Assembly (NCBI RefSeq): GCF_025147485.1
Contig: NZ_CP102263.1
Span: 2,431,501-2,495,500 of the forward strand
Source of the DNA: Bacteroides uniformis
GTDB taxonomy: Bacteria; Bacteroidota; Bacteroidia; Bacteroidales; Bacteroidaceae
Reading direction: 5' to 3'
DNA length: 64,000 bases
The position numbers were made by a program, and so were the translations under genes. The notes under the pieces are model-generated. The model made no database searches and was not told the origin of the DNA. It saw only the letters and a program-made list of their open reading frames with translations. Below, one piece after another: positions 43,147 through 63,334 of this stretch (position 1 is its first letter; the number at the start of each line of letters is the position of its first letter).

Positions 43147-43305
43147 TTCTGAGAGAGTATACTATGAGAGCTGGTGCAATTAGCATCTGCTCCCATATTG
43201 TTTTCATTCTTTTCTATTAATTTGCTGCTAAAGCTAAAGTTTATTTAGCAAAAAACACGCGTAGAATACCTTTAGAAAGGGGATGTATCAAAAATACCAC
43301 CTTTC

Positions 43306-43349
43306 GTAACATTTGTTATAGGTGCAAATCCTGGTTTCGCTTAATTTTG
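43306..43349 (+). promoter_or_regulatory. SusC promoter region with candidate operator of the fructan regulator
   Basis: GTAACATTTGT (43306-43316) is followed 25 bases later by TAATTTTG (43342-43349), a match to TAnnTTTG. The same 11-mer is found 46 bases before the -7 element of the second transcription unit at 56256-56266. It sits inside a partial dyad (ACCT...AGGT, TAAC...GTTA). Its role as a binding site is inferred. The 219-base gap before this holds no other clear feature. Confidence 0.55.
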
Positions 43350-43404
43350 CTGACACAAAACTCAATTGCAGAATTGGTTTATTATTAACTTTAAATTAAT
43401 AGAT

Positions 43405-46400
43405 ATGTTGAAAAGCATTAGTCTCAGGCTTTGCACACTAATTGTGCTTCTTTTTGTGGGCATTCTTTCCTTTGCCCAGCAAGTTCAGGTAAAAGGTACT
43501 GTCGTTGAAAAATCGAGTGGTGAATCCATTATCGGTGCTTCTGTCATGGAAGTAGGTTCCAACAGCAATGGAACAATTACGGATATTGATGGAAATTTCA
43601 CGCTGTCTGTAACTTCCGGTGCCACATTGTCCGTATCCTATATAGGATATAAAACCGTTACAGTAAAGGCACAGCCCACTTTACGCATTGAGTTGACGGA
43701 AGATTCCCAGTTGATTGATGAAGTAGTGGTGACCGGCTATATGTCCGAGAAGAAGGCCAGTTTGACCGGTTCGGTGGCTGTGGTCAAGATGAAGGATGTA
43801 GCAGATATTCCTACGGGAAATGTGTTGTCGAGCTTGCAGGGACGTGTTGCCGGTATGAACATTACGACTGACGGCACACCGGGCGGTGGAAATACTTCTA
43901 CATTGGTCCGTGGTAAGTCATCTTTCCGAAATGATGCCAATTCCCCGCTTTATGTCATTGACGGTGTGATGACCCGTGAGAACATCTCGTCTATCCTTTC
44001 TTCCAATGATGTAGAATCCATTCAGGTATTGAAGGATGCCGCTTCCGCTTCTATTTATGGTGCACAGGCTGCCAATGGTGTGATTATCATTACTACCAAA
44101 CGTGCCAAGAAAGGGGAGACCCGTGTGGATTTTGATATGTCGTTGACTTTGCAGACCTATCAATGTGGCTTTGATATGTTGAATGCAGATGAGTGGGGCC
44201 AGGTTTATTGGTCGGCTTATAAGTATGCCAATAATGGAGCTACGCCAAGCAGCGAAATATATGGTAATGGTGCAACTCCCCAACTTCAAGACTATATCGG
44301 CCTGAATGGAGCTAAAGTACATGCCGTTGATACGGATTGGCGCGATGTGGTTTATCGCACTGCCTTGATGCAGAATTACAGTGCGACACTTTCAAAGGGC
44401 TCTGACAATGGTGCCTTCTCGTTAGCGTTGAACTATCTCGACCATGACGGTCTGGTAGAGAATACGAATTTCCAGCGTATCAATACCCGCATCAGTTCTA
44501 ACTATCATTATCTTGACAATCGCTTGCGCATCGGCGAGAACGTTGCTATCAATCGTTGGACACAGACCCTCAGTCCGGCCGGTGTAGATGAGAATGCCAT
44601 CAAACAGCATCCTGCCAAGACGGTTTATGATGAGAATGGCAATTATAACGATGCCATCAATGATGTTTTGGGTGATGCCCCCAATATGGCACGTTTGTTG
44701 GAGAATGAAAAACAGAACAAACATGATTACTGGCGTATCTTTGGTAATGCATTCCTTGAAATTGAACCGATTAAGAACCTGGTGCTGAAAACCAATTTCG
44801 GTATGAATTATTATGATGAAACCAACAAAACTTTTGAGCCGGCATGGGCACGCGATGAGGTCAATAAGCTGACTCAATCATCCAACAAAAGACTGGATTG
44901 GGTATGGACCAATACCGTGACTTATAGCAAAGCTTTTGGAAAGAACAATCTGACTGCACTTCTTGGTACAGAAGCCAAGAAGAACCATTCGGAATCCATG
45001 TTCGGTTATGGTACGGGACTGGCTGTAGAAGATGAAGATTATATTTATCTCGACGGTGTGACTGCCGGTAAGAATGTAGGTGCCGGTGCTTCCAATTATG
45101 GCATGGTGTCTTACTTTGGTAAAGTGAATTATGATTATGAAGGACGGTATCTGGCTTCTGTTACGGTACGCCGTGATGCTTCTTCCCGCTTGGCAAAGGG
45201 TAATAATGTGGATTACTTCCCTTCAGTGTCGGCAGGCTGGCGCATTTCAAGTGAGAAGTTTATGGAAGCGACCAAGAATTGGTTGGCAGATTTGAAACTA
45301 CGTGCTTCATGGGGTATCAATGGTAACGATATTATTGATAATGAGGCCCCCTATACTAAATACTTGATTAGTCTGAAGGATGCAAGCTACAACATGAACG
45401 GTGATGGAACGACTTTGGCTCCCGGTGGTTACAAAGTGAGGTCTACCAATCCCGATTTGAAGTGGGAGAGTACAAGACAACTCAATATTGGTGTGGACGC
45501 CGCTTTCCTGAATGGACGTCTGAGTGCTTCTCTCGATTATTTTGATAAGAAGACAAGTGATATGCTTGTAGAGAAACCGTATATTGCTGTCATTGGCGAG
45601 GGTGGTTACTGCTGGTATAATGGTGGTACGATGAACAATAAAGGTTTCGAGATGGCATTGACCTGGAATGATAAGGTGAAGGATTTCCAGTATAATGTAG
45701 CATTTAACCTTTCATATTACAAGAATGAAGTGACAGAGCTGTCGGAAGAAATTTACTATACTTATGGTGGCGGTAATGGTGTTGACAAGACCTTGGTTGG
45801 TCAACCGTTCGGTTCATGGATGGGCTTCAAGACAGATGGAGTGTTCCGTACCCAGCAGGAGGTGGATGAGTATAAATCCAAATATAATGTACAGTTTGGC
45901 GCTCCCGGAGTAGGACGTATTAAATACGTGGATGCTGATGGTAACGGTACGATTGATACGAACGACCGTGTATGGTTGGGGTCTGACAATCCGAAAGTGA
46001 TTGCAGGTCTGAATCTTGGGGCATCTTGGAAAGGCTTTGACCTCAGCATGTTCTTCAACGGTATGATTCGTGATGCCTATAACAACTCCAAATATTATAC
46101 GGATTTGTTCCAATGCTGGACCGGTAATCATTCTACCCGCCTGCTCGATGCCATGCATGCCTACGAGAACTTTGAAAAGACGGGTGTTTACAATAGCAGT
46201 GTACCTGCTTTAACCACCCTTAACAGCAACAATGAGCACGAAGTTTCTGAGTTCTATATTGAAAATGGTTCGTATATCAAGCTGAAAAGCCTGACATTGG
46301 GTTATACGCTTCCTAAAGCAGCTCTCGACAAGATGAAGATGCGTCATGCGCGCATTTATTTCCAGGCTCAGAATTTGTTTACGATTACCGGTTATACGGG

Positions 46401-46476
46401 TGCCGACCCTGAAGGTCTGGGCTATCCTTATCCGTTGCCCCGTACGTTCTCTTTGGGATTATCATTTGGTTTCTAA
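43405..46476 (+). CDS. SusC-like TonB-dependent outer-membrane transporter
   Basis: The 1023-residue protein has a signal peptide, an N-terminal carboxypeptidase-D-like domain (QVQVKGTVVEKSSGESIIG onward, about residues 25-110), a TonB-box region with the EVVVTGYM segment near residues 109-116, a plug domain and a long beta-barrel ending in a family-typical aromatic residue. It would import oligosaccharides with its SusD partner. The start at 43405 is chosen for the signal peptide; the frame also opens at 43366. It heads the fructan-type locus. Confidence 0.94.
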   Translation: MLKSISLRLCTLIVLLFVGILSFAQQVQVKGTVVEKSSGESIIGASVMEVGSNSNGTITDIDGNFTLSVTSGATLSVSYIGYKTVTVKAQPTLRIELTEDSQLIDEVVVTGYMSEKKASLTGSVAVVKMKDVADIPTGNVLSSLQGRVAGMNITTDGTPGGGNTSTLVRGKSSFRNDANSPLYVIDGVMTRENISSILSSNDVESIQVLKDAASASIYGAQAANGVIIITTKRAKKGETRVDFDMSLTLQTYQCGFDMLNADEWGQVYWSAYKYANNGATPSSEIYGNGATPQLQDYIGLNGAKVHAVDTDWRDVVYRTALMQNYSATLSKGSDNGAFSLALNYLDHDGLVENTNFQRINTRISSNYHYLDNRLRIGENVAINRWTQTLSPAGVDENAIKQHPAKTVYDENGNYNDAINDVLGDAPNMARLLENEKQNKHDYWRIFGNAFLEIEPIKNLVLKTNFGMNYYDETNKTFEPAWARDEVNKLTQSSNKRLDWVWTNTVTYSKAFGKNNLTALLGTEAKKNHSESMFGYGTGLAVEDEDYIYLDGVTAGKNVGAGASNYGMVSYFGKVNYDYEGRYLASVTVRRDASSRLAKGNNVDYFPSVSAGWRISSEKFMEATKNWLADLKLRASWGINGNDIIDNEAPYTKYLISLKDASYNMNGDGTTLAPGGYKVRSTNPDLKWESTRQLNIGVDAAFLNGRLSASLDYFDKKTSDMLVEKPYIAVIGEGGYCWYNGGTMNNKGFEMALTWNDKVKDFQYNVAFNLSYYKNEVTELSEEIYYTYGGGNGVDKTLVGQPFGSWMGFKTDGVFRTQQEVDEYKSKYNVQFGAPGVGRIKYVDADGNGTIDTNDRVWLGSDNPKVIAGLNLGASWKGFDLSMFFNGMIRDAYNNSKYYTDLFQCWTGNHSTRLLDAMHAYENFEKTGVYNSSVPALTTLNSNNEHEVSEFYIENGSYIKLKSLTLGYTLPKAALDKMKMRHARIYFQAQNLFTITGYTGADPEGLGYPYPLPRTFSLGLSFGF

Positions 46477-46495
46477 ACTTTAAAACTATACTATT

Positions 46496-48280
46496 ATGAA
46501 ATTGAAACATTTATATATGCTTGGCGCAGTAGCGCTGATGACTGCAAGCTGTAATGAAGACCGTTTCCTGGATTTGAAGCCCCAGGGTAGCTTGAACGAA
46601 GATATTATGACTTCTACAGAAGGTGCCGACCTTTTAGTGAATGCCGCGTATGCAGCTTTGGGTGGTCCCGAGGGACAGAGTTGGAGTGTATGGTGTCATC
46701 CTACTTCCAATTGGACTTATGGTGAGGTGCGTTCGGATAATGCCTATAAAGGCGGTGGTGGTGTCGGTGACCTTAATGAAGTGCACCGTATGGAGACATT
46801 TGATATGGATGTAACCAATGGATTCTTGGACAGCAAGTGGTATCATCTATATTGCAGTGTACAGCGTTGTAACTCTGCATTGCGCGTACTGAATGCTGCA
46901 ACAGATGAGCAGGTAAACGGACGTGTATCCCGCATTGCGGAGATGAAAGTGCTTCGTGCCCATTATTATTTTGAATTAAGCCGCCTTTTCAACAAGATAC
47001 CTTATTTTGATGAGAACGTTGAGATTTCCCAATATCCGGATATTCCGAACAATGAGTTTACCCGTGACGAGATTCTGAGTATGCTGGCCAAGGAGATGCT
47101 TGATGCCGCCGAACAGCTTCCTGCATCACAGCCGGAGGTAGGGCGTATTCATAAATACATAGCACTGGCCTATGCGGCTAAAATCAAGCTGTACCAGGCG
47201 TATCAGCAAGATGAGATTACGCATGCCGTAACTTCCATCAATAAAGAGCTGCTGAGGGAAGTCGTTTCGCTTTGCGACCAAGTGACTGCCAGCAACCGTT
47301 ACGGTTTGCTTGACGATTTCCAGGGATTGGATTTAGTAACTAATGAAAACGGTAAAGAATCTGTTTTTGCCATTCAATATTCCATGAATGACGGTACCGA
47401 AAGTGCCGGCCGCATCAACTGGAGCAATCTGTTGAATTCTCCGGGTGGAGGCAGCCCTTACGGAGGTGACGGTTTCTTCCTGCCCAGTCAAGATCTGATA
47501 AATGCTTACCAGACAGATGCAAACGGTCTGCCCGATTTTAATTATCAGTCAAAGTCTGATTATAGTTGGGCGGTATTGAACAATGGGGTTTATACTTTAC
47601 AAAACACGACTCCCAATGTAGACCCGCGTCTCGATTTTGTTGTGGGCCGTCCTACTATAACTTGGAAAACTTATCCGGACAAGCCGTGTGAGGGATGGGT
47701 GCGTGATAAGGATACTTATGGCTATAATTGCGCGAAGCGCTTCTGGGTTTCTCCGGAAAGTAGTGATATGTTTAATGGCTGGCCTTGGGGGGCTTCACAG
47801 TTGAACTGGCAGATTATACGTTACGCGGATATTCTTCTTTGGAAAGCTGAGGCTCTTATTGAACTCAATGAAGGCAATGGACTCGAAACTGCCCGTGATT
47901 TGATTAATCAGATACGCAATCGTGCCCGGAACAGCGCCTATGTAAAGGATTTCAACGACCATTCCAAATATGCGGCCAACTACCTTGTCAATCCTTATCC
48001 TGCTGATGTCTGGAATCAGGATTATGCCCGTCAGGCCCTCCGTTGGGAAACACGTCTGGAGAAGGCTTTGGAAGGTGAACGTTTCTTCGACCTAGTCCGT
48101 TGGGGCATAGTGGAAACAACCATGAACAAGTACATTACCGCGGAGTCGGACAATCGCATTTATTATGCCAATGCGCACTTTACGGGTGGAAAGGATGAGT
48201 ATTATCCGGTTCCGAACAATCAATACGGATTTTCTGGAGGCAAGTATGTACAGAATCCCGGTTATGCTCCGTTCAACTAA
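46496..48280 (+). CDS. SusD-like glycan-binding lipoprotein
   Basis: The 594-residue protein has a lipoprotein signal (LMTASC, Cys at residue 19), the FLDLKPQG N-terminal segment of SusD proteins and the alpha-helical SusD fold throughout. It is a surface partner that caps the SusC transporter. It begins 20 bases after SusC. No SusE-type lipoprotein follows. Confidence 0.94.
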   Translation: MKLKHLYMLGAVALMTASCNEDRFLDLKPQGSLNEDIMTSTEGADLLVNAAYAALGGPEGQSWSVWCHPTSNWTYGEVRSDNAYKGGGGVGDLNEVHRMETFDMDVTNGFLDSKWYHLYCSVQRCNSALRVLNAATDEQVNGRVSRIAEMKVLRAHYYFELSRLFNKIPYFDENVEISQYPDIPNNEFTRDEILSMLAKEMLDAAEQLPASQPEVGRIHKYIALAYAAKIKLYQAYQQDEITHAVTSINKELLREVVSLCDQVTASNRYGLLDDFQGLDLVTNENGKESVFAIQYSMNDGTESAGRINWSNLLNSPGGGSPYGGDGFFLPSQDLINAYQTDANGLPDFNYQSKSDYSWAVLNNGVYTLQNTTPNVDPRLDFVVGRPTITWKTYPDKPCEGWVRDKDTYGYNCAKRFWVSPESSDMFNGWPWGASQLNWQIIRYADILLWKAEALIELNEGNGLETARDLINQIRNRARNSAYVKDFNDHSKYAANYLVNPYPADVWNQDYARQALRWETRLEKALEGERFFDLVRWGIVETTMNKYITAESDNRIYYANAHFTGGKDEYYPVPNNQYGFSGGKYVQNPGYAPFN

Positions 48281-48353
48281 TTATATTTTGAAATAAAAAC
48301 GTAAGGGAGGGGAAACGTTTGTTTCCCTCTTTTCCTTTAAACAATCTTTTATT

Positions 48354-50489
48354 ATGAAAAACTTTGCCTATTCTATATTAGGCTGTCTATTGCTTTCTTT
48401 GAATGCAGCTTTTGCTCAAAAAACATGGTCGTTTGACGGGCAGGACCCCTTACTTTCCTGTGACGGTAAGTCATTGTTGAATTTGTACACTATAAAGGAA
48501 ATACCAGAATTTGTTACCGGAGTCGAAGGTAAAGCCCTTCGTACAGACGGGTATTCCACTTGGATGGATACAACCACGGAAGGAGATGTTTCGTCGTTGT
48601 CCGGATGGTTTGCTCTGGAATCTTATCCGACGGATACTGCTGCCTTTATGGGAATCAGAGACATGGCAGGAACATCTGTAGCGGTATGTGTAGACCGTTA
48701 TGGTGAGCTGCTGTTGGGAATGGGGCAGAATGGCTCATACTCTTACTGTTCATTAAAGACAAAAGTCGACCGTTTCAAGTGGCTGCATGTGGTCCTTGAT
48801 TTGAGTAATGAATCGGTTTGCTTGAATGGACAGAGGATGAGTGCAGAGGTATGGCCCCGGAACTTGCAGGATGGTGAAATGATGTTTCGGGTAGGTAAGG
48901 ATTTCAGGGAAAAGAAGGTTTGGATGTACGATGTTACGGCTATAAACGGGTTGATTGACGGGATAAGCCTCACTCCCTTTTCCGATGATTCGTCTGCATG
49001 GAGAGACGAGATTGCCTTAGGATTGAAGAAGACTCCGGTTTTGGCTATTCCGGAAACCCGTTTTGCGAAGGACTTCAACCGTCCTCGCTATCATCTGTTG
49101 CCGGCTGCCAACTGGACGAATGAGACGCATGGTTTACTTCTTTATAAAGGTAAATATCATATATTCAATCAGAAGAATGCTTCTGCAATCTTCCTGGGAC
49201 AGATAAATTGGGGACATTTCAGCAGTCCCGATATGCTTCATTGGACGGAGGAAAAGCCGGCTTTGACTCCTGATGCTGCTTATGACAAGAATGGAATATG
49301 GTCCGGGCATGCTGTTATCAATGATGACGGTATCCCCCAGCTGATATACACAGCCGGTGGAGACAAGATGGGAGTGGGTATTGCTTTTCCAAAAGATACT
49401 GCGTTGATAGAATGGGAGAAATATGCGGGTAATCCGGTTATTGCCGAGAAGCCTGCCGGATATACCCGTACGGACATGCGTGACCAGTATGTTTGGAAAG
49501 AGGGTGATGTCTGGTATATGATTATCGGTTTCGGCATTGAGCAGACCGATACACCCCACGGGGCTTTGCTGCTTTATAAATCGGCGGACTTGAAGAGATG
49601 GGATTTTGTACATTTGCTGTTTGAGGGCAATCCGGAAGTGGATGACTCCGGTATTTTCTGGGAAATGCCGGTCTTTAAGAAGATGGGCGGCAAATATGTT
49701 CTTTTGGTGAATAGGGTTCCTCATAAAGGCATACCTGCGCGTTGCCAGTATTGGATAGGAGATTTCAAGAATGAAAAGTTTATACCGGACAACCCAGTCC
49801 CTCAAAATCTGGAGGTCATCAATCGCTTGCTGTCCCCCTCTGTTGTTGAGACTCCGGAAGGGGATGTTGCTGCCATTGCCATTATACCCGATGAAATAGG
49901 AGGGGAGGCCACTTATGAACAAGGATGGGCACATCTCTACAGTATGCCCAGAAGATGGCAGCTGAAAGATGGGAAACTATGCCAAACACCCCATCCCGTG
50001 ATGAAACAATTGCGTGAACAACCGACGGTTTATTCCAGACAGGCATTGACTGCTGCGAAACCGTGCATTGTGAGCAGAAGGGAACATCAGCTTGAAGTCA
50101 AGGCGACTTTTTATCCCGGTGACGCAAAACGGTTTGGATTTACATTGTGTAAGAATCCGGATAATAGCGAATATAGCCTGATTTATTATGATGTGGAGAA
50201 GGAGGAACTTATTGTGGACCAGACGCATTCTTCCTTGCGTGCACACATTCCTTTGAAGATTCGTAAGGATCATTATCGGTTGGATACTGCTAAACCGGTG
50301 GAGATTCGTTTGTTTATTGACGGTTCTGTAGTGGAAGGATTTATTAATAACGAAGATGCGTTCACTACAAGAATCTTCCCTTTGAAAGAAAATAGTACGC
50401 TATTGGAGCTATTCTCTGATGGAAAAACAACGGAAGTTGCTGCCGAAGTTTGGAAACTGAAAGATGTAAAGGTAAAGATGAACTTTTAA
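48354..50489 (+). CDS. Divergent GH32-like protein with altered catalytic motif
   Basis: The 711-residue secreted protein has an N-terminal lectin-like beta-sandwich (about residues 22-240) and a GH32 five-bladed propeller and sandwich. GH32 motifs are changed: the nucleophile motif WMNDPNG becomes WTNETHG (Glu257 in place of Asp), RDP becomes RDQ (Asp377) and WECPD becomes WEMP (Glu437). The spacing of the three sites (120, 60) is close to the family's. It may be an inactive binding protein, or an enzyme of altered chemistry. It starts 73 bases after SusD. Confidence 0.8.
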   Translation: MKNFAYSILGCLLLSLNAAFAQKTWSFDGQDPLLSCDGKSLLNLYTIKEIPEFVTGVEGKALRTDGYSTWMDTTTEGDVSSLSGWFALESYPTDTAAFMGIRDMAGTSVAVCVDRYGELLLGMGQNGSYSYCSLKTKVDRFKWLHVVLDLSNESVCLNGQRMSAEVWPRNLQDGEMMFRVGKDFREKKVWMYDVTAINGLIDGISLTPFSDDSSAWRDEIALGLKKTPVLAIPETRFAKDFNRPRYHLLPAANWTNETHGLLLYKGKYHIFNQKNASAIFLGQINWGHFSSPDMLHWTEEKPALTPDAAYDKNGIWSGHAVINDDGIPQLIYTAGGDKMGVGIAFPKDTALIEWEKYAGNPVIAEKPAGYTRTDMRDQYVWKEGDVWYMIIGFGIEQTDTPHGALLLYKSADLKRWDFVHLLFEGNPEVDDSGIFWEMPVFKKMGGKYVLLVNRVPHKGIPARCQYWIGDFKNEKFIPDNPVPQNLEVINRLLSPSVVETPEGDVAAIAIIPDEIGGEATYEQGWAHLYSMPRRWQLKDGKLCQTPHPVMKQLREQPTVYSRQALTAAKPCIVSRREHQLEVKATFYPGDAKRFGFTLCKNPDNSEYSLIYYDVEKEELIVDQTHSSLRAHIPLKIRKDHYRLDTAKPVEIRLFIDGSVVEGFINNEDAFTTRIFPLKENSTLLELFSDGKTTEVAAEVWKLKDVKVKMNF

Positions 50490-51973
50490 TGAAAATACAG
50501 AAAATGAAGATACCAGCTATATTGGGTGCACTTTTATTGGCAGGAACATTGTCTGCCGGTGCACAAATGAATTCAGACAGTTTATACAAAGAGCCGTATC
50601 GTCCTCAGTATCATTTCAGTCCGGAGAAGGGATGGATTGGTGATCCCTCGGGATTCATGTACTATCAGGGTAAATATCATATGTACTGGTGGGGCAAAGT
50701 CGAATCTACAGATTTGGTACATTACCAACAGATAACCCCTTATGCCATGACCGGAACGGATGACAATATCAGTTACTTCACCGGTTCTGCGGTCATAGAC
50801 AAGAACAACACGGCCGGCTTCGGCAAGGGGGCTTATGTGGCGGCTTACACCGTTTTTGAGAAGGACTCCAAGAAACAGGCGCAGGGCATCTCTTTCAGTC
50901 ATGACGGAAAGACATTTCATTATTATGAAGGTAACCCGGTTCTGGACCTTTGGAGTACGGAATTCAGGGACCCTACCGTCTTCTGGCACGAGCCGACCCA
51001 AAAATGGGTGATGGTTGTAGCCAAGGCCCTGGAGAAGAAAATAAAGTTTTATACCTCTCCTGATTTGAAGAGCTGGACTTGGACCAGTGATTTTGGCCCT
51101 GCCGGTGACAGTGAAAAGTCTTGGGAGTGCCCGGATTTATTCCAGTTGCCGGTTGACGGGGATTCTGACAAGAAAAGGTGGGTGATGGTCGTATCTGTAA
51201 ACTGGGCGCAAGAACAATATTTTATAGGAGACTTCGACGGCACTTCTTTTAAGCTGATGGAGAACCATCCTGCAGAGCCTCTATATGTGGACAAAGGGCT
51301 GGACTTTTATGCATCCCGCACATTTCAGGATTTTGACGGAACGTTGGATTCCAAAATTTCGATGGGCTGGGTTGCAACCTGGGACTATGCACCGGTAGCT
51401 CCATCGAAGTATGGGAAGGGCTTCTGGTCCATTCCCCGTAATCTGGAACTGAAGACATACAAGGAAGGCGTGAGGCTGGTGCAGAAACCGGTGGAACAGT
51501 TGCAAACACTTCGCCATAAGCCTGCATCGGTGAAACGTGCTTTATCGGTGGGAACACAGAGGTTACCCGGCTTTGTTCCCGATGAGAATGTCTACGAACT
51601 CGATGCTTCGTTTTCTACTGACGTATCCAACACCTTTGGCTTGAATTTGTGTGTGGGTGAAGGGCGCAAAGTGGTGGTCAGCTATGATACGGATTCACAT
51701 AATCTGGTGATTGACCGCACCCATTGCTCCGATGTGCAGATTCCTAAATTCAGCCGTATGGCATATGCCAGGGTGGAACCGGTAGATAATAAGATACGTT
51801 TGCATATATTTGTAGACAAATCGAGTATTGAAATCTTTGCCAATGACGGGAAGGATGTATTCACATTATTAACCTATCCGGGCGAGGCTCAAACCGGTAT
51901 CGAACTTTTTGCGCAGAAGAAGGGGACGAAGATGGAGTTGGATGCCTGGATGCTTAAATCAATATGGAGATGA
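50489..51973 (+). CDS. GH32 fructanase-like enzyme (short)
   Basis: The 494-residue secreted GH32 protein has a signal peptide. The nucleophile motif is WIGDPSG (Asp52), the transition-state site FRDP (Asp161) and the acid/base WECPD (Glu213); the propeller is followed by a beta-sandwich. It should cleave beta-fructosidic bonds from chain ends or sucrose/FOS. The changed residues around the nucleophile (I, G, S for M, N, N) suggest a distinct substrate. The start overlaps the preceding stop by 1 base; 50501 is the alternative. Confidence 0.88.
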   Translation: MKIQKMKIPAILGALLLAGTLSAGAQMNSDSLYKEPYRPQYHFSPEKGWIGDPSGFMYYQGKYHMYWWGKVESTDLVHYQQITPYAMTGTDDNISYFTGSAVIDKNNTAGFGKGAYVAAYTVFEKDSKKQAQGISFSHDGKTFHYYEGNPVLDLWSTEFRDPTVFWHEPTQKWVMVVAKALEKKIKFYTSPDLKSWTWTSDFGPAGDSEKSWECPDLFQLPVDGDSDKKRWVMVVSVNWAQEQYFIGDFDGTSFKLMENHPAEPLYVDKGLDFYASRTFQDFDGTLDSKISMGWVATWDYAPVAPSKYGKGFWSIPRNLELKTYKEGVRLVQKPVEQLQTLRHKPASVKRALSVGTQRLPGFVPDENVYELDASFSTDVSNTFGLNLCVGEGRKVVVSYDTDSHNLVIDRTHCSDVQIPKFSRMAYARVEPVDNKIRLHIFVDKSSIEIFANDGKDVFTLLTYPGEAQTGIELFAQKKGTKMELDAWMLKSIWR

Positions 51974-54042: not shown

Positions 54043-54046
54043 TATT

Positions 54047-56227: not shown

Positions 56228-56255
56228 CATACAGATACCTTTTTAAGGATGGAAT

Positions 56256-56320
56256 GTAACATTTGTAGTATGCTTTGAAACAAAAAAGATAGTCTCCTGC
56301 TGCTTGGTGGCGTATCTTTG
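56256..56320 (+). promoter_or_regulatory. Promoter region of the second fructan transcription unit
   Basis: TATCTTTG (56313-56320) is a clear -7 element 40 bases before the next gene. GTAACATTTGT (56256-56266) lies 46 bases before it and is identical to the copy in the SusC promoter region. The offset between the two positions is 21 bases, two helical turns. Confidence 0.6.
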
Positions 56321-56360
56321 CATGCTAGAAAAACATAATTAATTTAATACCAACAGAAAC

Positions 56361-58175
56361 ATGATTCATTTAAAAGACTTTTGGCGGACAATCAGAAGGA
56401 CGCTTACCGTATTTATATTAGGAACTACCGTGGCTGTCTTCACATGCCAGGCCATAAATCCTCCTTTCGTGATTAAACATCTGGGTGACGGACAGAGTAT
56501 CGTCCAAATTGACGAGCAGAAGAAGTTTTTGCTGCTGCCGGTGGAAGAGGCTTCTCCGGAGGCAAAATTGTATATGATAGCGGACAATGATGTTGTACGC
56601 AGTATGAACGTGCGATTGGCAGTCAATAAGGTTGACTATTTTGTTCCGGTCGATTTGACCGGCTTCGATAATAAACATCTCTCTTTCAACTTCCAGCTTA
56701 TTCCGGATTCGGCCTTATGCTGGGAAGAAATGAAACTGTCGGATGAATTCGATGTTTCGAACCGGGAGAAGTACCGTCCGGTGTATCATTTCAGCCCGGC
56801 TTACGGTTGGATGAATGATCCTAACGGAATGTTCTACAAAGACGGGGTCTACCATTTGTTCTACCAGCATAATCCCTACGGCTCCATGTGGGGGAACATG
56901 CATTGGGGACATGCCACCAGTACGGACCTCGTCACTTGGGAACATCACGGAGATGCTATTTCGCCCGATGCGCTGGGAACAATTTTCAGTGGCTCTTGTG
57001 TTGTCGACAAGGATAATACGGCCGGGTTCGGTGCCGGTGCCGTCATTGCTTTCTATACATCGGCAAGCGACCGCCAAGTGCAGAGCATGGCCTATAGCCT
57101 TGACAACGGAAAGACCTTCAAGAAGTATGCGCGAAATCCCATCCTGACTTCCACGCAGCGCGACTTCCGTGACCCTAAAGTCATCTGGCACGAAGATACC
57201 AAGAAATGGATCATGGTTCTTGCCGTAGGGCAGGAAATGGAGATATACTCTTCTGCCGACCTGAAGAGCTGGACGCTGGAGAGCAAATTCGGTGAAGGAC
57301 AAGGTGCTCACGGCGGAGTCTGGGAGTGTCCCGACCTGCTTGAACTGCCGGTTGAAGGTACGGAACTGAAGAAGTGGGTACTCGTCTGTAACCTCAATCC
57401 GGGTGGACCGTTCGGTGGCTCTGCCACACAATATTTCGTGGGGACATTTGACGGAAAGAGATTCGTGAACGAGTCTCCCGCAGTGACGAAATGGATGGAC
57501 TGGGGAAAAGACCATTATGCAACTGTCACTTGGAGCAATGCTCCTGCAGGACGTGCCATTGCATTGGCATGGATGAGCAACTGGCAATATGCCAACGATG
57601 TGCCCACCCGCCAATACCGTAGTGCCAACTCCGTGCCGCGCGACCTTTCGCTCTATACCTCGGAGGGTGAAACCTATGTAAAGGTAACCCCGTCTCCCGA
57701 ATTGCTGAAACTGAGGGATAAAGGCAGCAAGAAGCGTGCTTTCAAGGTAGACCGCACGTATAATCTGGACAAACTGCTGAATGACAATTCCGGAACGTAT
57801 GAAATCGAAATGACCATCAAGAACAAGGATGCGGATGTGATAGGATTCCAGCTCTTTAACTCGAAAGGCGAGGAGGTGGAGATGTACTATAACCTGGCGG
57901 AAAAGACGTTCACCATGGACCGTACCGAGAGTGGTGAGGTGTCGTTCAGCAAGGACTTCCCTGCAGTGACCGTGGCTCCTGTCGAGGGTGGCAATGAAAT
58001 GAAACTCCGCTTGTTCGTAGACAAGTCGAGCATTGAAGCGTTTGGCAACGACGGACGTTTTGCCATGACAAATCTTGTATTCCCGTCGGAACCTTACAAC
58101 CGCATCAGTTTCTATGCTAAAGGTGGAAGCTGCAATGTCACCTCGTTTACTGTGTACAAACTCGGATTAAAATAA
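56361..58175 (+). CDS. GH32 beta-fructosidase with N-terminal DUF4980-type domain
   Basis: The 604-residue exported protein has an N-terminal domain typical of the exo-fructanases of Bacteroides fructan loci (about residues 30-130), and the GH32 motifs WMNDPNG (Asp153), FRDP (Asp271) and WECPD (Glu322). A C-terminal beta-sandwich follows with RLFVDKSSIEAFGNDG. It would release fructose from sucrose, inulin or levan oligosaccharides in the periplasm. It begins the second transcription unit, ahead of the transporter. Confidence 0.92.
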   Translation: MIHLKDFWRTIRRTLTVFILGTTVAVFTCQAINPPFVIKHLGDGQSIVQIDEQKKFLLLPVEEASPEAKLYMIADNDVVRSMNVRLAVNKVDYFVPVDLTGFDNKHLSFNFQLIPDSALCWEEMKLSDEFDVSNREKYRPVYHFSPAYGWMNDPNGMFYKDGVYHLFYQHNPYGSMWGNMHWGHATSTDLVTWEHHGDAISPDALGTIFSGSCVVDKDNTAGFGAGAVIAFYTSASDRQVQSMAYSLDNGKTFKKYARNPILTSTQRDFRDPKVIWHEDTKKWIMVLAVGQEMEIYSSADLKSWTLESKFGEGQGAHGGVWECPDLLELPVEGTELKKWVLVCNLNPGGPFGGSATQYFVGTFDGKRFVNESPAVTKWMDWGKDHYATVTWSNAPAGRAIALAWMSNWQYANDVPTRQYRSANSVPRDLSLYTSEGETYVKVTPSPELLKLRDKGSKKRAFKVDRTYNLDKLLNDNSGTYEIEMTIKNKDADVIGFQLFNSKGEEVEMYYNLAEKTFTMDRTESGEVSFSKDFPAVTVAPVEGGNEMKLRLFVDKSSIEAFGNDGRFAMTNLVFPSEPYNRISFYAKGGSCNVTSFTVYKLGLK

Positions 58176-58193
58176 CAGATAATAATCTTCAGC

Positions 58194-59360
58194 ATGGAAA
58201 ATACTAAGAATTCTTCCTTGGCAAAGCTCTTTCCGGTCATGCTTTGCTTCTTCGCCATGGGCTTTGTGGATTTGGTGGGCATCGCCTCCAACTACGTGAA
58301 GGCCGACTTGAACCTGACCGACTCGCAAGCCAACATATTCCCGTCTCTGGTGTTCTTCTGGTTCCTCATCTTCTCCGTACCTACGGGTATGCTGATGAAC
58401 CGCATCGGACGCAAGAAGACGGTGCTTCTCAGCCTTGTCATCACGTTTGCCTCTTTGCTTCTCCCGGTTTTCGGAGACGGCTACGTGCTGATGCTGCTCT
58501 CGTTCTCATTGCTGGGCATCGGCAATGCGCTGATGCAAACGTCGCTCAACCCGCTGCTTTCCAATATCGTAAGCGGCGAGCGGCTGGCAAGTACGCTCAC
58601 CTTCGGACAGTTTGTAAAAGCCATTGCTTCGTTTCTGGCTCCATACATCGCCATGTGGGGAGCTACGCAGGCCATTCCGTCTCTGGGCATGGGCTGGAGG
58701 GTGCTGTTCCCGGTCTATATGGTTATTGCGGTGATTGCCATTCTCTGGCTGAGCGGTACTTCCATCCGCGAGGAAAAGGAAGAGGGACGCCCTTCCACCT
58801 TCGGGGAGTGCCTCGCCCTGCTGGGCAAGCCGTTTATCTTTCTCTGCTTCCTGGGCATCATGTGCCATGTGGGCATTGATGTAGGTACGAATACCACAGC
58901 GCCCAAAATCCTGATGGAGCGTCTGGGCATGACGCTGGCCGATGCCGGCTTTGCCACCAGCCTTTACTTCATTTTCCGCACGGCGGGTTGCTTTCTCGGC
59001 GCCTTCATTCTTCAGAAGATGGCTCCCCGAACCTTCTTCGGCATCAGCGTGTTATGTATGTTGGCTGCGATGGTAGGGTTGTTCGTTTTCCATGAAAAGA
59101 CAATGATATACATTTGCATTGCCCTTATCGGTTTCGGCAATTCGAACATCTTTCCGGTTATCTTCTCTCAGGCGTTGCTTGCTATGCCACAAAAGAAGAA
59201 CGAGGTTTCCGGTTTGATGATTATGGGGCTCTTCGGCGGTACGGTATTTCCGATAGCAATGGGCTTGGCAAGTGATGCTGTAGGACAAAGCGGTGCCGTG
59301 GCTGTGATGACGGTAGGGGTAGTGTACTTGTTCTTCTATATGCTGCGTATGAAGCGGTAA
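58194..59360 (+). CDS. MFS sugar transporter, probable fructose permease
   Basis: The 388-residue protein has about twelve membrane segments and the MFS loop motif MNRIGRKKT (about residues 66-74). Its place between a fructosidase and a fructokinase matches the inner-membrane fructose transporter of the known fructan locus. It starts 18 bases after the GH32 gene and is followed by a 21-bp tandem repeat. Confidence 0.85.
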   Translation: MENTKNSSLAKLFPVMLCFFAMGFVDLVGIASNYVKADLNLTDSQANIFPSLVFFWFLIFSVPTGMLMNRIGRKKTVLLSLVITFASLLLPVFGDGYVLMLLSFSLLGIGNALMQTSLNPLLSNIVSGERLASTLTFGQFVKAIASFLAPYIAMWGATQAIPSLGMGWRVLFPVYMVIAVIAILWLSGTSIREEKEEGRPSTFGECLALLGKPFIFLCFLGIMCHVGIDVGTNTTAPKILMERLGMTLADAGFATSLYFIFRTAGCFLGAFILQKMAPRTFFGISVLCMLAAMVGLFVFHEKTMIYICIALIGFGNSNIFPVIFSQALLAMPQKKNEVSGLMIMGLFGGTVFPIAMGLASDAVGQSGAVAVMTVGVVYLFFYMLRMKR

Positions 59361-59368
59361 TCTTTGTT

Positions 59369-59469
59369 CGCAGGCTGCGGACACATATCCCAAGGCTGCG
59401 GATATCTGTCCCAAGGCTGCGGATATCTGTCCCAAGGTTGCGGATGTCTATCCCAAGCCTTGGGATAGA
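59369..59469. repeat. 21-bp tandem repeat between transporter and fructokinase
   Basis: CCCAAGGCTGCGGATATCTGT is present at 59389-59409 and 59410-59430 without change, then with changes at 59431-59451. A partial copy precedes (CGCAGGCTGCGGAC, 59369-59382). The array ends in TATCCCAAG-C-CTTGGGATA (59449-59467), a perfect palindrome. It is outside the coding regions. It could form hairpins and act on transcription or mRNA stability between the genes. Confidence 0.85.
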
Positions 59470-59544
59470 GATAATCCTTAGTTCTTAGAGACTTTTTAAT
59501 AGATAATTGGCAACTTTTCATTCTATAGTTAGGAACTTTTTTAT

Positions 59545-59552
59545 TAGGTTTG
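59545..59552 (+). promoter_or_regulatory. -7 element of the fructokinase gene
   Basis: TAGGTTTG matches TAnnTTTG, 63 bases before the fructokinase ATG. No strong -33 element is seen. Read-through from the transporter gene is also possible. Confidence 0.4.
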
Positions 59553-59615
59553 CAGCGGGTAGGACATTGAGTTTGCCGTGAATAAAATATATCATTCATT
59601 AAACAATATAATATT

Positions 59616-60503
59616 ATGAATAAGATAATAGTAGGTATGGGCGAGGCTCTGTGGGACTGCCTCCCCGAAGGAAAGAAGATAGGCGGTGCTCCGGCAAACT
59701 TTGCTTACCATGCATCGCAGTTTGGTTTCGACAGCCGTGTGGTCAGTGCCGTAGGTGCCGATGCGGATGGGGACGAGATTCTGGATGTGTTCGCCCGGAA
59801 GGGGCTGCGCACGCAGATTGAGCGCGTGCCTTACCCCACGGGAACGGTGCAGGTGACGCTCGATGCCGTGGGCGTGCCGTGCTATGAGATAAAAGAAGGC
59901 GTGGCCTGGGACAACATTCCCTTTACCGACGAACTGAAGCGTCTGGCACTGAACACGCGTGCCGTATGTTTCGGCTCTTTGGCGCAACGCAGTGAAACAA
60001 GCCGCATCACCATCAACCGTTTTCTCGACACGATGCCCGATGCGGAGGGGCAACTGAAGATATTCGACATCAATCTCCGCCAAGGGTTCTATACCAAAGA
60101 GATACTCTGCGAATCCATGCGCCGCTGCAACATCCTCAAGATAAACGATGAGGAGCTGGTGACCATCAGCCGTATTTTCGGCTACCCGGGCATCGACTTG
60201 CAGGACAAATGCTGGATTCTGCTGGCTAAATATAACCTGAAAATGCTTATCTTGACTTGTGGAACGAACGGCAGCTATGTGTTCACTCCGGGAGTGGTTT
60301 CCTTCCAGGAGACGCCCAAGGTACCGGTGGCGGACACCGTTGGAGCCGGTGACTCGTTCACGGCAGCCTTCACCGCTGCCATTCTCAGCGGGAAGCAGGT
60401 GCCCGATGCCCATAAACTGGCGGTGGAAGTCTCTGCCTATGTATGTACCCAGAGCGGTGCCATGCCGGAATTGCCGGTGGCCTTGAAAGAAAGGCTGGCA
60501 TAG
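59616..60503 (+). CDS. Fructokinase (PfkB family)
   Basis: The 295-residue kinase phosphorylates fructose (or a related sugar) with ATP. The N-terminal GGAPANFAYHASQFG segment (about residues 24-38) and the C-terminal DTVGAGDSFTAAFTAAILSG signature (about 240-259, anion hole and catalytic Asp) are typical of the ribokinase/PfkB family. It traps fructose released by the GH32 enzymes and imported by the transporter. Confidence 0.92.
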   Translation: MNKIIVGMGEALWDCLPEGKKIGGAPANFAYHASQFGFDSRVVSAVGADADGDEILDVFARKGLRTQIERVPYPTGTVQVTLDAVGVPCYEIKEGVAWDNIPFTDELKRLALNTRAVCFGSLAQRSETSRITINRFLDTMPDAEGQLKIFDINLRQGFYTKEILCESMRRCNILKINDEELVTISRIFGYPGIDLQDKCWILLAKYNLKMLILTCGTNGSYVFTPGVVSFQETPKVPVADTVGAGDSFTAAFTAAILSGKQVPDAHKLAVEVSAYVCTQSGAMPELPVALKERLA

Positions 60504-60532
60504 ATTTTTCTTATTCTTTTCACATTTTTCGT

Positions 60533-60540
60533 TATCTTTG
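60533..60540 (+). promoter_or_regulatory. -7 element of the sensor/regulator gene
   Basis: TATCTTTG lies 34 bases before the ATG at 60575 and 30 bases after the fructokinase stop. It gives the regulator its own promoter. Confidence 0.6.
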
Positions 60541-60574
60541 CTCATCTGCAATCTTAAATCAGAGGAAAGTGAAG

Positions 60575-63334
60575 ATGAGACAGCATAACCTTCGGATTTT
60601 ATTCTTTTTGCTCGTGCTTTGGGGAGTGGCGGTTGCCTGCTCCCGGCGCGAGGCACGTTTCCGTATCGGCGTTTCCCAATGTAGCGAGGATGAATGGCGG
60701 CGCCAGATGAACAGTGAGATACTCCGTGAAGCCCATTTCTACGAGGATGTGGAGGTGGACATCCGTACTGCTGTCGACGATAATGACCGTCAGGCAAAAG
60801 ACATTCGTGAGCTGATAGCCGAAGGGGTGGATCTGCTGATTGTGGCCCCTAATGAAGCCACTCCGATAACTCCGGTTGTGGAGGAGGCATACAACCGGGG
60901 CATTCCGGTGATTGTAGTGGACCGTAAAATCCTTTCGGACAAATACACGGCCTACGTCGGTGCAGACAACTACGAGATAGGGAAAGCTGTGGGAGAGTAT
61001 GTGGCCAATGTGCTGCATGGGCAGGGAGATGTGGTGGAAATCTCAGGTTTGGTGGGCTCCACACCTGCCGTAGACCGTCATCAAGGATTTGTGAAGGCTA
61101 TATCCGCTTATCCCGGTATCCGGTTGCTGGCCGTTGAAGACGGTGCCTGGTTGCAACTCAAGGCCGGAGAGAAAATGGATACTCTGCTGAGCCGCTTTCC
61201 GCATATCGACCTGGTGTATGCGCAGAATGACCGTATGGCGGCCGGAGCCTATGCTGCCGCTGCCCGAGAGGGGCGGGAAAAGGATATGCGGTTCATCGGC
61301 ATAGACGCCCTGTCCGGCAAAGACTATGGAGTGGAGAAAGTGCTTGCCGGCGAACTGGATGCCACGTTTATATATCCTACCGGTGGCGACCGCGTGATGC
61401 AGATTGCCATGGATATCCTGAACAAGCGTGATTTCCCCCGTGAAACTATCCTGGGCACTTCCGTCGTCGACCGCGACAATGCTCTCATCATGAAGATGCA
61501 GACCGCCCACATCGGCACCCTGGATGGAAAGATAGAAACCCTGAACGGAAAGATAAACCAGTATTTAGCCAGTTATGCCACGCAGCAGGTTGTCTTGTAC
61601 GGCAGTCTGTCCGCCCTATTGTTGCTGGTCGGTTTGTTGGTGGCTGTCTACCTCTCCTTGCGTGCCAAGAACCGGTTGAACCGTGAACTGTCCATGCAGA
61701 AAAAGAAACTGGAGGAACAGAAAACCCAGTTGATACAGCAGAAGGAACTGTTGGAAGTACAGAAGTCGCAGTTAGAACAGCTTTCCCATGAACTGGAGGA
61801 GGCTACGCACGCCAAGCTGGTGTTCTTCACGAATATTTCACACGATTTCCGTACTCCGCTGACGCTGATAGCCGATCCCATAGAGCAGCTTCTTGCCAAC
61901 CGCACCCTCGACGGACAGCCGCGCCAGCTCCTCGAGCTGATGAAAAAGAATGTGCATATCCTGCTTCGCCTGGTCAACCAGATACTTGATTTCCGGAAGG
62001 TGGAGAACGGGCGCATGGAGCTCCATCTCGAACCTTTTGATTTGCTCGACAGCTTCCGGGGCTGGAACGACTCTTTCCGCATGGCGTTGCTGAAGAAACA
62101 TATTGCTTTCAGCTTTGAGGCATCTCCCGATACGGACTTCCGGATGATGGCGGATGCGGAGAAGATGGAGCGCATTTACTTCAATCTCTTCTCCAATGCC
62201 GTGAAGTATACGCCGGAGAACGGGAAAATCACCGTACGGTTGTTAAAGTCGGAACAGAACTACAGTCTGTCCGTCTTCAATTCCGGCAGCTACATTTCTT
62301 CGACCGATGTGGAAGCCATCTTCGAGCGCTTCTATCAAGTGGACGGGCATCAAGCCGGTACCGGTATCGGACTGGCGCTGGTACGTGCCTTTGTAGAGAT
62401 GCATGGCGGTAACATTACGGCACGCAGTGACGAGAAAGGCACTACTTTCATCGTTACTTTCCCGCAGCAGGATGTTTCGCAGTACCATCCCACCATAGTG
62501 ACGTTGCCTGCCGAAGAGAAGGACGTGTCGTCCACCCTGATAGATACGGAAGTGAAGGCATGCGAAGAGGTGGTTGAGGCTGATTGTCCTACTGTGCTGG
62601 TAATTGACGATAATGCGGATATTCGCAACTATGTGAAGTCACTTCTGTCGAACGAGTTCCGTGTATTGGATGCTGCGGACGGGACAGAGGGTATCCGGCT
62701 GGCCATGAAGTATGTGCCGGATGTGATTATCTCCGATGTAATGATGCCCGGTATGGATGGTGTGGAATGCTGCCGCCGCTTGAAGGGGGAGTTGCAGACA
62801 TGCCATATCCCGGTGATTCTGCTGACGGCCTGCTCGCTGGACGAACAGCGTATCCAGGGCTATGATGGCGGTGCCGATTCTTATATTTCCAAACCATTCA
62901 ATTCGCAGTTGCTCTTGTCTCGTGTCCGCAATCTTATTGCAAACCGCCGTCAGTTGAGGCAGTTCTTCGGAGATAACCAGACTATCGAGAAGGAAGCCAT
63001 CAGTGATTTGGATAAGGGTTTCGTCTCCCGCTTCAAATCGCTTGTCGAGGAGAGAATGAAAGATGCGGAACTCAATGTGGAGGATTTGGGACGGAATATG
63101 GGTATGAGCCGTGTGCAGCTTTACCGTAAGCTGAAATCGCTGACCAACTATTCGCCGAATGAGCTGCTGCGCCAGATGAGGTTGAAAAAGGCTGCCTCAC
63201 TGCTTGCCTCCTCTGACATGACGGTAGCGGAGATTGCCTATGAAGTGGGCTTTTCGTCACCTTCCTATTTCACGAAATGCTATAAGGAACAGTTTGGGGA
63301 GAGTCCTACCGAGTTTCTGAAAAGAAGGGGATAG
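60575..63334 (+). CDS. Hybrid two-component system sensor/regulator of the fructan locus
   Basis: The 919-residue protein has an N-terminal membrane segment, a periplasmic sugar-binding-protein-like domain (about residues 28-310), a transmembrane helix (about 339-362), a coiled coil, a histidine kinase (NISHDFRTPLTL, His423; GTGIGLALV near residues 594-602), a receiver domain (SDVMMPGMDG, Asp721) and an AraC-type helix-turn-helix (about 815-919). This is the layout of the fructose-sensing regulator of the B. thetaiotaomicron fructan locus. It would bind fructose or a released sugar in the periplasm and activate the locus. The start is placed at 60575, downstream of its promoter. Confidence 0.95.
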   Translation: MRQHNLRILFFLLVLWGVAVACSRREARFRIGVSQCSEDEWRRQMNSEILREAHFYEDVEVDIRTAVDDNDRQAKDIRELIAEGVDLLIVAPNEATPITPVVEEAYNRGIPVIVVDRKILSDKYTAYVGADNYEIGKAVGEYVANVLHGQGDVVEISGLVGSTPAVDRHQGFVKAISAYPGIRLLAVEDGAWLQLKAGEKMDTLLSRFPHIDLVYAQNDRMAAGAYAAAAREGREKDMRFIGIDALSGKDYGVEKVLAGELDATFIYPTGGDRVMQIAMDILNKRDFPRETILGTSVVDRDNALIMKMQTAHIGTLDGKIETLNGKINQYLASYATQQVVLYGSLSALLLLVGLLVAVYLSLRAKNRLNRELSMQKKKLEEQKTQLIQQKELLEVQKSQLEQLSHELEEATHAKLVFFTNISHDFRTPLTLIADPIEQLLANRTLDGQPRQLLELMKKNVHILLRLVNQILDFRKVENGRMELHLEPFDLLDSFRGWNDSFRMALLKKHIAFSFEASPDTDFRMMADAEKMERIYFNLFSNAVKYTPENGKITVRLLKSEQNYSLSVFNSGSYISSTDVEAIFERFYQVDGHQAGTGIGLALVRAFVEMHGGNITARSDEKGTTFIVTFPQQDVSQYHPTIVTLPAEEKDVSSTLIDTEVKACEEVVEADCPTVLVIDDNADIRNYVKSLLSNEFRVLDAADGTEGIRLAMKYVPDVIISDVMMPGMDGVECCRRLKGELQTCHIPVILLTACSLDEQRIQGYDGGADSYISKPFNSQLLLSRVRNLIANRRQLRQFFGDNQTIEKEAISDLDKGFVSRFKSLVEERMKDAELNVEDLGRNMGMSRVQLYRKLKSLTNYSPNELLRQMRLKKAASLLASSDMTVAEIAYEVGFSSPSYFTKCYKEQFGESPTEFLKRRG

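Follow-up and report, generated by a model that had tools for sequence, protein, structure and literature searches.

Ten genes on the (+) strand, following one another almost without gaps, occupy positions 43366-63334 of the window, i.e., the whole 64,000-nucleotide stretch of Bacteroides uniformis DNA analyzed here (cf. Table 1). Judged by its gene content, this run is a fructan utilization locus of the kind represented by BT1754-BT1765 of Bacteroides thetaiotaomicron. A sequence-only reading had claimed a SusC/D pair, three intact GH32 genes, a transporter, a fructokinase, a sensor, and a GH172 lipoprotein at this site, and Pfam and NCBIfam searches recovered every one of them. Pfam recognized four GH32 genes. 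In three of them (GH32b, GH32c, and GH32d), which correspond to the intact ones, the motifs for the nucleophile, RDP, and EC are canonical, whereas the fourth (GH32a) has WTNETHG, RDQ, and WEMP, the last in place of WECP. The GH172 gene is embedded in this GH32 run, overlapping GH32b by 10 bases and ending 4 bases ahead of GH32c. All four strong GH32 matches of the 4.63-Mb genome (192-323 bits) sit in the fructan locus, and two partial ones (28.8 and 24.4 bits at a cut-off of 22.1) were found elsewhere.

Among solved structures, the best relative of the SusC protein was the SusC of 5t3r (743 bits), which we take to be the levan SusC BT1763 of B. thetaiotaomicron, and the best relatives of the SusD protein were the SusD homologs of 6z8i and 5t3r (347 and 345 bits), presumably BT1762 of the same species. 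The fructokinase matched 2qhp ("Fructokinase") over its full length with 584 bits, and residues 72-384 of the sensor matched 2x7x with 433-434 bits (312 residues); we assume that these structures are B. thetaiotaomicron BT1757 and the sensor domain of BT1754, respectively. GH32d was closest to the exo-inulinase 8i12 (398 bits). The true start of the hybrid sensor lies probably at about position 60575.

Table 1. Genes of the fructan utilization locus, in window coordinates
Feature	Position	Strand	Supporting match or remark
SusC-type TonB-dependent outer membrane transporter	43366-46476	+	TIGR04056, 870 bits; first ATG of the frame at 43405
SusD-type glycan-binding lipoprotein	46496-48280	+	PF07980/PF14322
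GH32a, Glu replacing the nucleophile Asp (NWTNETHG)	48354-50489	+	PF00251, 188.7 bits
GH32b, canonical WIGDPSG / RDP / WECP	50450-51973	+	PF00251, 208.8 bits
GH172 (DUF2961) lipoprotein, 692 aa	51964-54042	+	PF11175, 188.7 bits (cut-off 27)
GH32c, canonical WLNDPNG / RDP / ECP, extra N-terminal region	54047-56227	+	PF00251, 232.7 bits
GH32d, exo-type with DUF4980, canonical WMNDPNG / RDP / WECP	56361-58175	+	PF00251, 320 bits; PF16352
MFS transporter, probable inner-membrane sugar carrier	58194-59360	+	PF07690, 109.6 bits
PfkB-family fructokinase	59616-60503	+	PF00294
Hybrid two-component sensor/regulator with BT1754-type periplasmic sugar-binding domain	60443-63334	+	PF13407 (Peripla_BP_4), HisKA, Response_reg, HTH_18

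The usual GH32 nucleophile motif is WMNDPNG. When GH32a of the window was aligned with the best 120 of its 381 homologues, NWTNETHG was present in 117 of the 121 rows (NWTNETHA in two, two being gapped), so that the Glu is fixed among close relatives of this protein. Homologues of GH172 and GH32a showed seven equal longest-contig sizes of at least 15 kb, which agrees with linkage of the two genes and was not counted as evidence.

Like the window locus, the BT1754-BT1765 PUL has SusC/D, a fructokinase, and a sensor, which are strong matches, as well as an MFS transporter and GH32 genes. Compared with this PUL and its Bt-8736 variant, the window locus adds the GH172 gene and the GH32a gene with its Glu nucleophile, and its run holds no further gene as a possible BT1761-type surface binding protein. 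PF16346, the mark of a BT1760-type surface endo-levanase, was detected in none of the four GH32 proteins and was present in another locus surveyed here (L092). The inulin variant Bt-8736, like the window locus, is without a BT1760-type GH32 (PMC5967196). Since its GH32 proteins are devoid of a BT1760-type endo-levanase domain, the window locus appears closer to this inulin-using variant of the BT1754-type PUL.

The locus had also been presented as a possibly undescribed extension of a known fructan locus, which is too strong. Predicted PUL 32 of B. uniformis CL11T00C07, with four GH32s, one GH172, CBM38, and SusCD, is mentioned in PMC9905522 and shares GH32s, GH172, and SusCD with the window locus, with which it may be identical. 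PUL 32 is cited there for matching an isolate that grew on FOS; it is listed and its GH172 is not studied (PMC9905522). In our literature search, for which subscription journals were mostly beyond reach, no GH172 belonging to a fructan locus of Bacteroidota turned up as the subject of a study.

Comparison of the GH172 protein with characterized enzymes

The GH172 protein has a lipoprotein-type leader (LLPLMASC), and a second, weak DUF2961 match covers its N-terminal part. The protein is therefore an extended form, which has this additional stretch and also its own C-terminal part. In this it can be likened, by description only, to DgGH172b of D. gadei, a "1.5 domain" form (PMC10115798). The window GH172 matched the solved proteins 4kq7, 8ah3, 8ic8, and 7v1v with 68 to 54 bits, and these scores rose to 101 to 92 bits when a profile built from 52 relatives was used. 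The founding member of the family, the DFA I synthase/hydrolase alphaFFase1 (BBDE_2040) of B. dentium, was matched with 54 bits by the sequence alone and with 96 bits by the profile, the identity being 28% in one aligned stretch (88 residues) and 38% in the other (90 residues). The operon of alphaFFase1 also holds a GH32 gene (PMC8605356), as the window locus does, whereas the window GH172 differs from this enzyme in being longer, in being a lipoprotein instead of an intracellular protein, and in its +1 residues.

The two Glu residues, 21 apart, that had been likened to the pair of the founding enzyme are indeed so placed, as Glu421 and Glu442 align to E270 and E291. In the alignment with 7v1v (numbering and roles of the -1 and +1 residues of the founding enzyme according to PMC8605356), all six residues of the -1 subsite are identical (W267, E270, E291, D292, W298, and Y187' correspond to W418, E421, E442, D443, W449, and Y189), and the complete set is kept in 34 of the 39 rows of the GH172 clade described below. 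However, five of the six are common to the D-arabinofuranosidase 8ah3 and to most of the 29 GH172 rows outside this clade, in which the position of Tyr189 is Tyr or Phe. Therefore, the Glu pair and the -1 residues alone do not favor fructose over D-arabinose, and this part of the case for an alpha-fructosyl role was not supported.

The likeness to 8ah3 speaks for an unlikely alternative, namely that the GH172 is an exo-alpha-D-arabinofuranosidase merely located in a fructan locus, which would take D-arabinofuranosyl ends from actinobacterial or pilin glycans. GH172s from D. gadei, Nocardia, M. amalyticus, and Microbacterium have been characterized as D-arabinofuranosidases (PMC10115798, PMC10509167), the founding enzyme has this activity as well (PMC8605356), and the D. 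gadei and actinobacterial exo-D-arabinofuranosidases belong to the same family and have most -1 residues in common with the window protein. Unlike the window gene, the GH172 genes of D. gadei and Microbacterium have GH183 for a neighbor (PMC10115798, PMC10509167).

At the +1 subsite, the sequence alignment indicates no conservation, K147 being replaced by T154 and E85 having no aligned residue. Mutants of the founding enzyme at E85 and K147 display 94-100% activity on pNP-alpha-D-Araf and <5% on inulobiose (PMC8605356). As the -1 residues are kept and E85 and K147 are not, the sugar pocket seems to be that of the family, while the acceptor side differs. Furthermore, the DFA I synthase/hydrolase set comprises proteins with >47% identity to alphaFFase1 (PMC8605356), and the window GH172, below that value in both aligned stretches and lacking E85 and K147, falls outside this subgroup. 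Because the +1 residues needed for DFA I are not conserved, an alpha-fructosidase specificity is likelier than one for DFA I in particular. These residues also bear on a highly doubtful reading in which the GH172 would work in reverse, turning GH32-made inulobiose into DFA I as a private cyclic store. It would suit the 9:1 equilibrium of the founding enzyme toward DFA I (PMC8605356) and the position of the gene among GH32 genes, but E85 and K147, required for inulobiose (PMC8605356), have no conserved counterpart, and inulobiose would be drained by the GH32 enzymes.

For the calcium ligands N31, D33, and N272, the first two are matched, by motif only, by N72 and D74, and N272 is replaced by D423. 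The residue following W298 was considered as a marker of fructose versus D-arabinose specificity: 34 of the 39 clade rows have Ala there, the founding enzyme has Gly, and both 4KQ7 and 8ah3 have Cys. In the 4KQ7 protein, a clash with O2 of fructose is expected from Cys304 (PMC8605356), and we infer that it is the Cys found at this position. The marker was rejected, since clade members linked to GH183 have Ala as well. Four loci (L022, L030, L034, and L041) contain two GH172 copies, one of which has Phe at the W298 position (SFCG for SWAP) with both catalytic Glu residues kept.

Genomic context of the GH172 clade

In a tree of 67 GH172 catalytic regions, the window type fell into a clade of 39 rows with a support of 100/100. 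The window protein is represented there by its identical copy L009, the founding enzyme, DgGH172b, and ExoMA1 are absent from the tree, and six of the 73 GH172 rows had been dropped beforehand, five as duplicate or cut (L018, L029, L039, L091, and L095) and one as off-type (L067_05). Most clade members carry SWAPV after the nucleophile motif. Outside the clade lie a row identical to 4KQ7 and the GH172s of a D-arabinan-type region of the same genome.

A GH32 gene was found near the GH172 gene in 18 of 35 clade loci and in none of 25 other GH172 loci (Fisher p 6e-6, kinship and unequal flanks being ignored in p-values), the window-type fructokinase likewise in 18/35 versus 0/25, and a BT1754-type sensor domain in 13/35 versus 0/25. 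At least one of the three was present in 25 clade loci compared with none of the others, whereas GH183 was no different (5/35 versus 3/25). At most about 10 kb on either side of a gene was taken as its context, and the counts span 60 of 70 mapped loci. Of the 25 comparison loci, six come from the genome of the window itself, and several have short flanks. GH32 and GH183 genes of the loci were detected by models built from the loci's own members; Pfam confirmed GH32 in L021, L040, L092, and L093 and GH183 in L033, L060, and three own-genome genes, and the GH183 calls of L031, L032, L037, and L048 rest on the locus-derived model. The GH32 of L016 is a C-terminal piece only, at the locus edge. 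L029 and L039, which resemble clade members and stand outside the counts, both have the sensor, and L039 also has GH32. A point against the alpha-fructosyl role is that both GH32 and GH183 were missing from the surveyed stretch of twelve of the 35 clade loci; in six of these, the stretch extended <3 kb on one side. Strong GH32 matches were found somewhere in all nine genomes of these twelve loci that were searched. That fructokinase and the fructose-type sensor follow the clade argues against the D-arabinofuranosidase alternative, and the linkage to GH32, fructokinase, and sensor strengthens the proposed alpha-fructosyl role.

Relatives of the window GH172 are few: one of 395 genomes of the phylum at an E value of 1e-110 (the window's own), 7 of 119 of the order at 1e-30, and 8 of 301 of the family at 1e-60, the window genome being included in the last two counts as well. 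Any GH172 was present in 10 of 60 genomes of the genus, again with the window genome.

Natural fusions of GH172 with GH32

An orthologous locus, L093, lies in a 3.5-Mb single-contig genome of the same family. It is ordered HTCS-SusC-SusD-GH32a-[GH172-GH32b]-GH32d-MFS-fructokinase, and its GH172 and GH32b form a single 974-residue protein (L093 10037-12958). A database search returned this type of GH172-GH32b fusion again as P0242 (40 member sequences), and three further fusions were present among the best 120 of 260 matches: P0246 and P0248, which join GH172 to the GH32d type, and P0247, which joins it to the GH32c type. P0248 comprises 31 members from 6 contigs. Catalytic motifs are kept in both halves of all four database proteins and of the L093 fusion. 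Hence, the clade GH172 is naturally joined to at least three GH32 types (b, c, and d).

These fusions are the strongest evidence here that the GH172 would act on the molecules of GH32, i.e., on substrates in which alpha- and beta-fructofuranosyl bonds occur together, as they do in difructose dianhydrides. They count for the alpha-fructosyl role and against a D-arabinofuranosidase that merely resides in the locus. One further candidate, P0102 (642 aa, a GH32a start and a GH172 end), was not counted as a fusion, because its pieces match the window locus (the GH172 part at 100%), and it was treated as an assembly join or a deletion. A shortened version of the window GH172 is recorded as P0013.

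GH183-linked clade loci and the D-arabinan-type region of the window genome

Five clade loci (L031, L032, L033, L037, and L048) combine the clade GH172 with two GH183-family genes, SusC (SusD in four of them), a sensor, and a PfkB kinase, and no GH32 was found in their surveyed stretches (up to about 10 kb per side). GH183 is a family of endo-D-arabinanases (PMC10115798, PMC10509167). As these loci carry GH183 and no GH32, the clade is not purely fructan-linked, which favors the D-arabinofuranosidase alternative. In all five, the sensor is of the BT1754 type. The PfkB kinase of L031 is 31% identical to the window fructokinase, and those of the other four loci are 47-50% identical to it. Across the corresponding genomes, GH32 searches returned several strong matches in G861, one of 140 bits in G865, partial ones of 21-23 bits in G862 and G864 (41.6 bits summed for one G862 frame), and none in G863. 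Fucose isomerase was above the cut-off in G862 and G865, below it in G861, and not found in G863 and G864. Four of the five genomes are metagenome bins, so that absence there is weak evidence.

The genome of the window has a region of D-arabinan type of its own (G000:C1:1240000-1300000, L060-L062), in which three GH183 genes, a GH116, and a fucose isomerase accompany five GH172 genes belonging to several types. Of these families, the ten genes of the fructan locus show GH172 only. The genome's matches to PF13810 and PF02952, by which the GH183 and D-arabinose isomerase of a D-arabinan PUL would be recognized, all lie outside the fructan locus. One GH172 of L062 is identical over 373 residues to 4kq7, which is BACUNI_00161 of B. 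uniformis ATCC 8492 (PMC8605356). This fits the assignment of the window to B. uniformis, although a single shared protein is no proof, as such genes can pass from one species to another. 8ah3 is close to L062_00 (661 bits), a row outside the clade. Thus, GH183, GH116, and fucose isomerase are all missing from the fructan locus and all present in another region of the genome, which tells against D-arabinofuranosyl ends as the target of the window GH172.

The GH183-linked loci also touch on the question of whether the alpha-fructofuranosyl groups would belong to microbial polysaccharides and not to dietary dianhydrides, a reading that we hold to be quite improbable. According to record titles, clade members come from Bacteroidota of the rumen and of the deer gut, whose hosts are unlikely to feed on caramel, and the GH183-linked loci retain fructokinase and the fructose-type sensor with no GH32 in the locus. 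Nevertheless, the window locus itself is inulin-like, and we know of no alpha-fructosyl polymer. A related and rather unlikely idea, at which the five GH183-linked loci hint, is that the clade is a dedicated alpha-fructofuranosidase clade and that the loci of some relatives serve the use of a fructofuranan with alpha linkages that has not been described so far. An alpha-2,6-fructofuranan would be a stereochemical analogue of alpha-1,5-D-arabinan, and for this reason GH183 (endo) and GH172 (exo) together could digest it to fructose.

Apparent recent transfer of the SusC-to-fructokinase block

Positions 43217-60516 of the window, a length of 17.3 kb, share 99.7% identity with B. ndongoniae DNA (L009 1254-18532; L095 127-17405; contig G266:C13). 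Within the 5 kb upstream of the block, the parts that match G266 do so at only 71-78% and on a different contig, and the best G266 match of the sensor, at 57%, is on a third contig. On the basis of this difference, the block from SusC to fructokinase, without the sensor, appears to have moved recently between species. In B. ndongoniae, a DDE transposase gene is located at its left end, and the contig stops about 126 bases past its right end.

Proposed function of the locus

Taken with moderate confidence, the GH172 of the locus is a probable alpha-D-fructofuranosidase that extends a BT1754-type fructan locus; searches of the literature and the PDB found no activity data for any member of its clade. 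SusC/D would bring in fructo-oligosaccharides as well as sugars, either cyclic or branched, in which alpha- and beta-fructofuranosyl bonds are both present, for example difructose dianhydrides. The alpha bond would then be broken in the periplasm by the lipoprotein GH172 through a retaining two-Glu mechanism, with E442 as the nucleophile and E421 as the acid/base, to give an inulobiose-like product, and the beta bonds would be cut by the GH32 enzymes. The MFS transporter may then import fructose for phosphorylation by the PfkB kinase, and periplasmic fructose bound by the sensor would switch the operon on.

If this holds, gut Bacteroides would use a fructan locus of the ordinary sort to digest the alpha-fructosyl bonds of caramel-type and microbial difructose dianhydrides. 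That two species share a nearly identical block suggests its recent spread. The GH172 clade would gain a predicted activity that could be checked by one protein assay, with the natural fusions as ready-made constructs.
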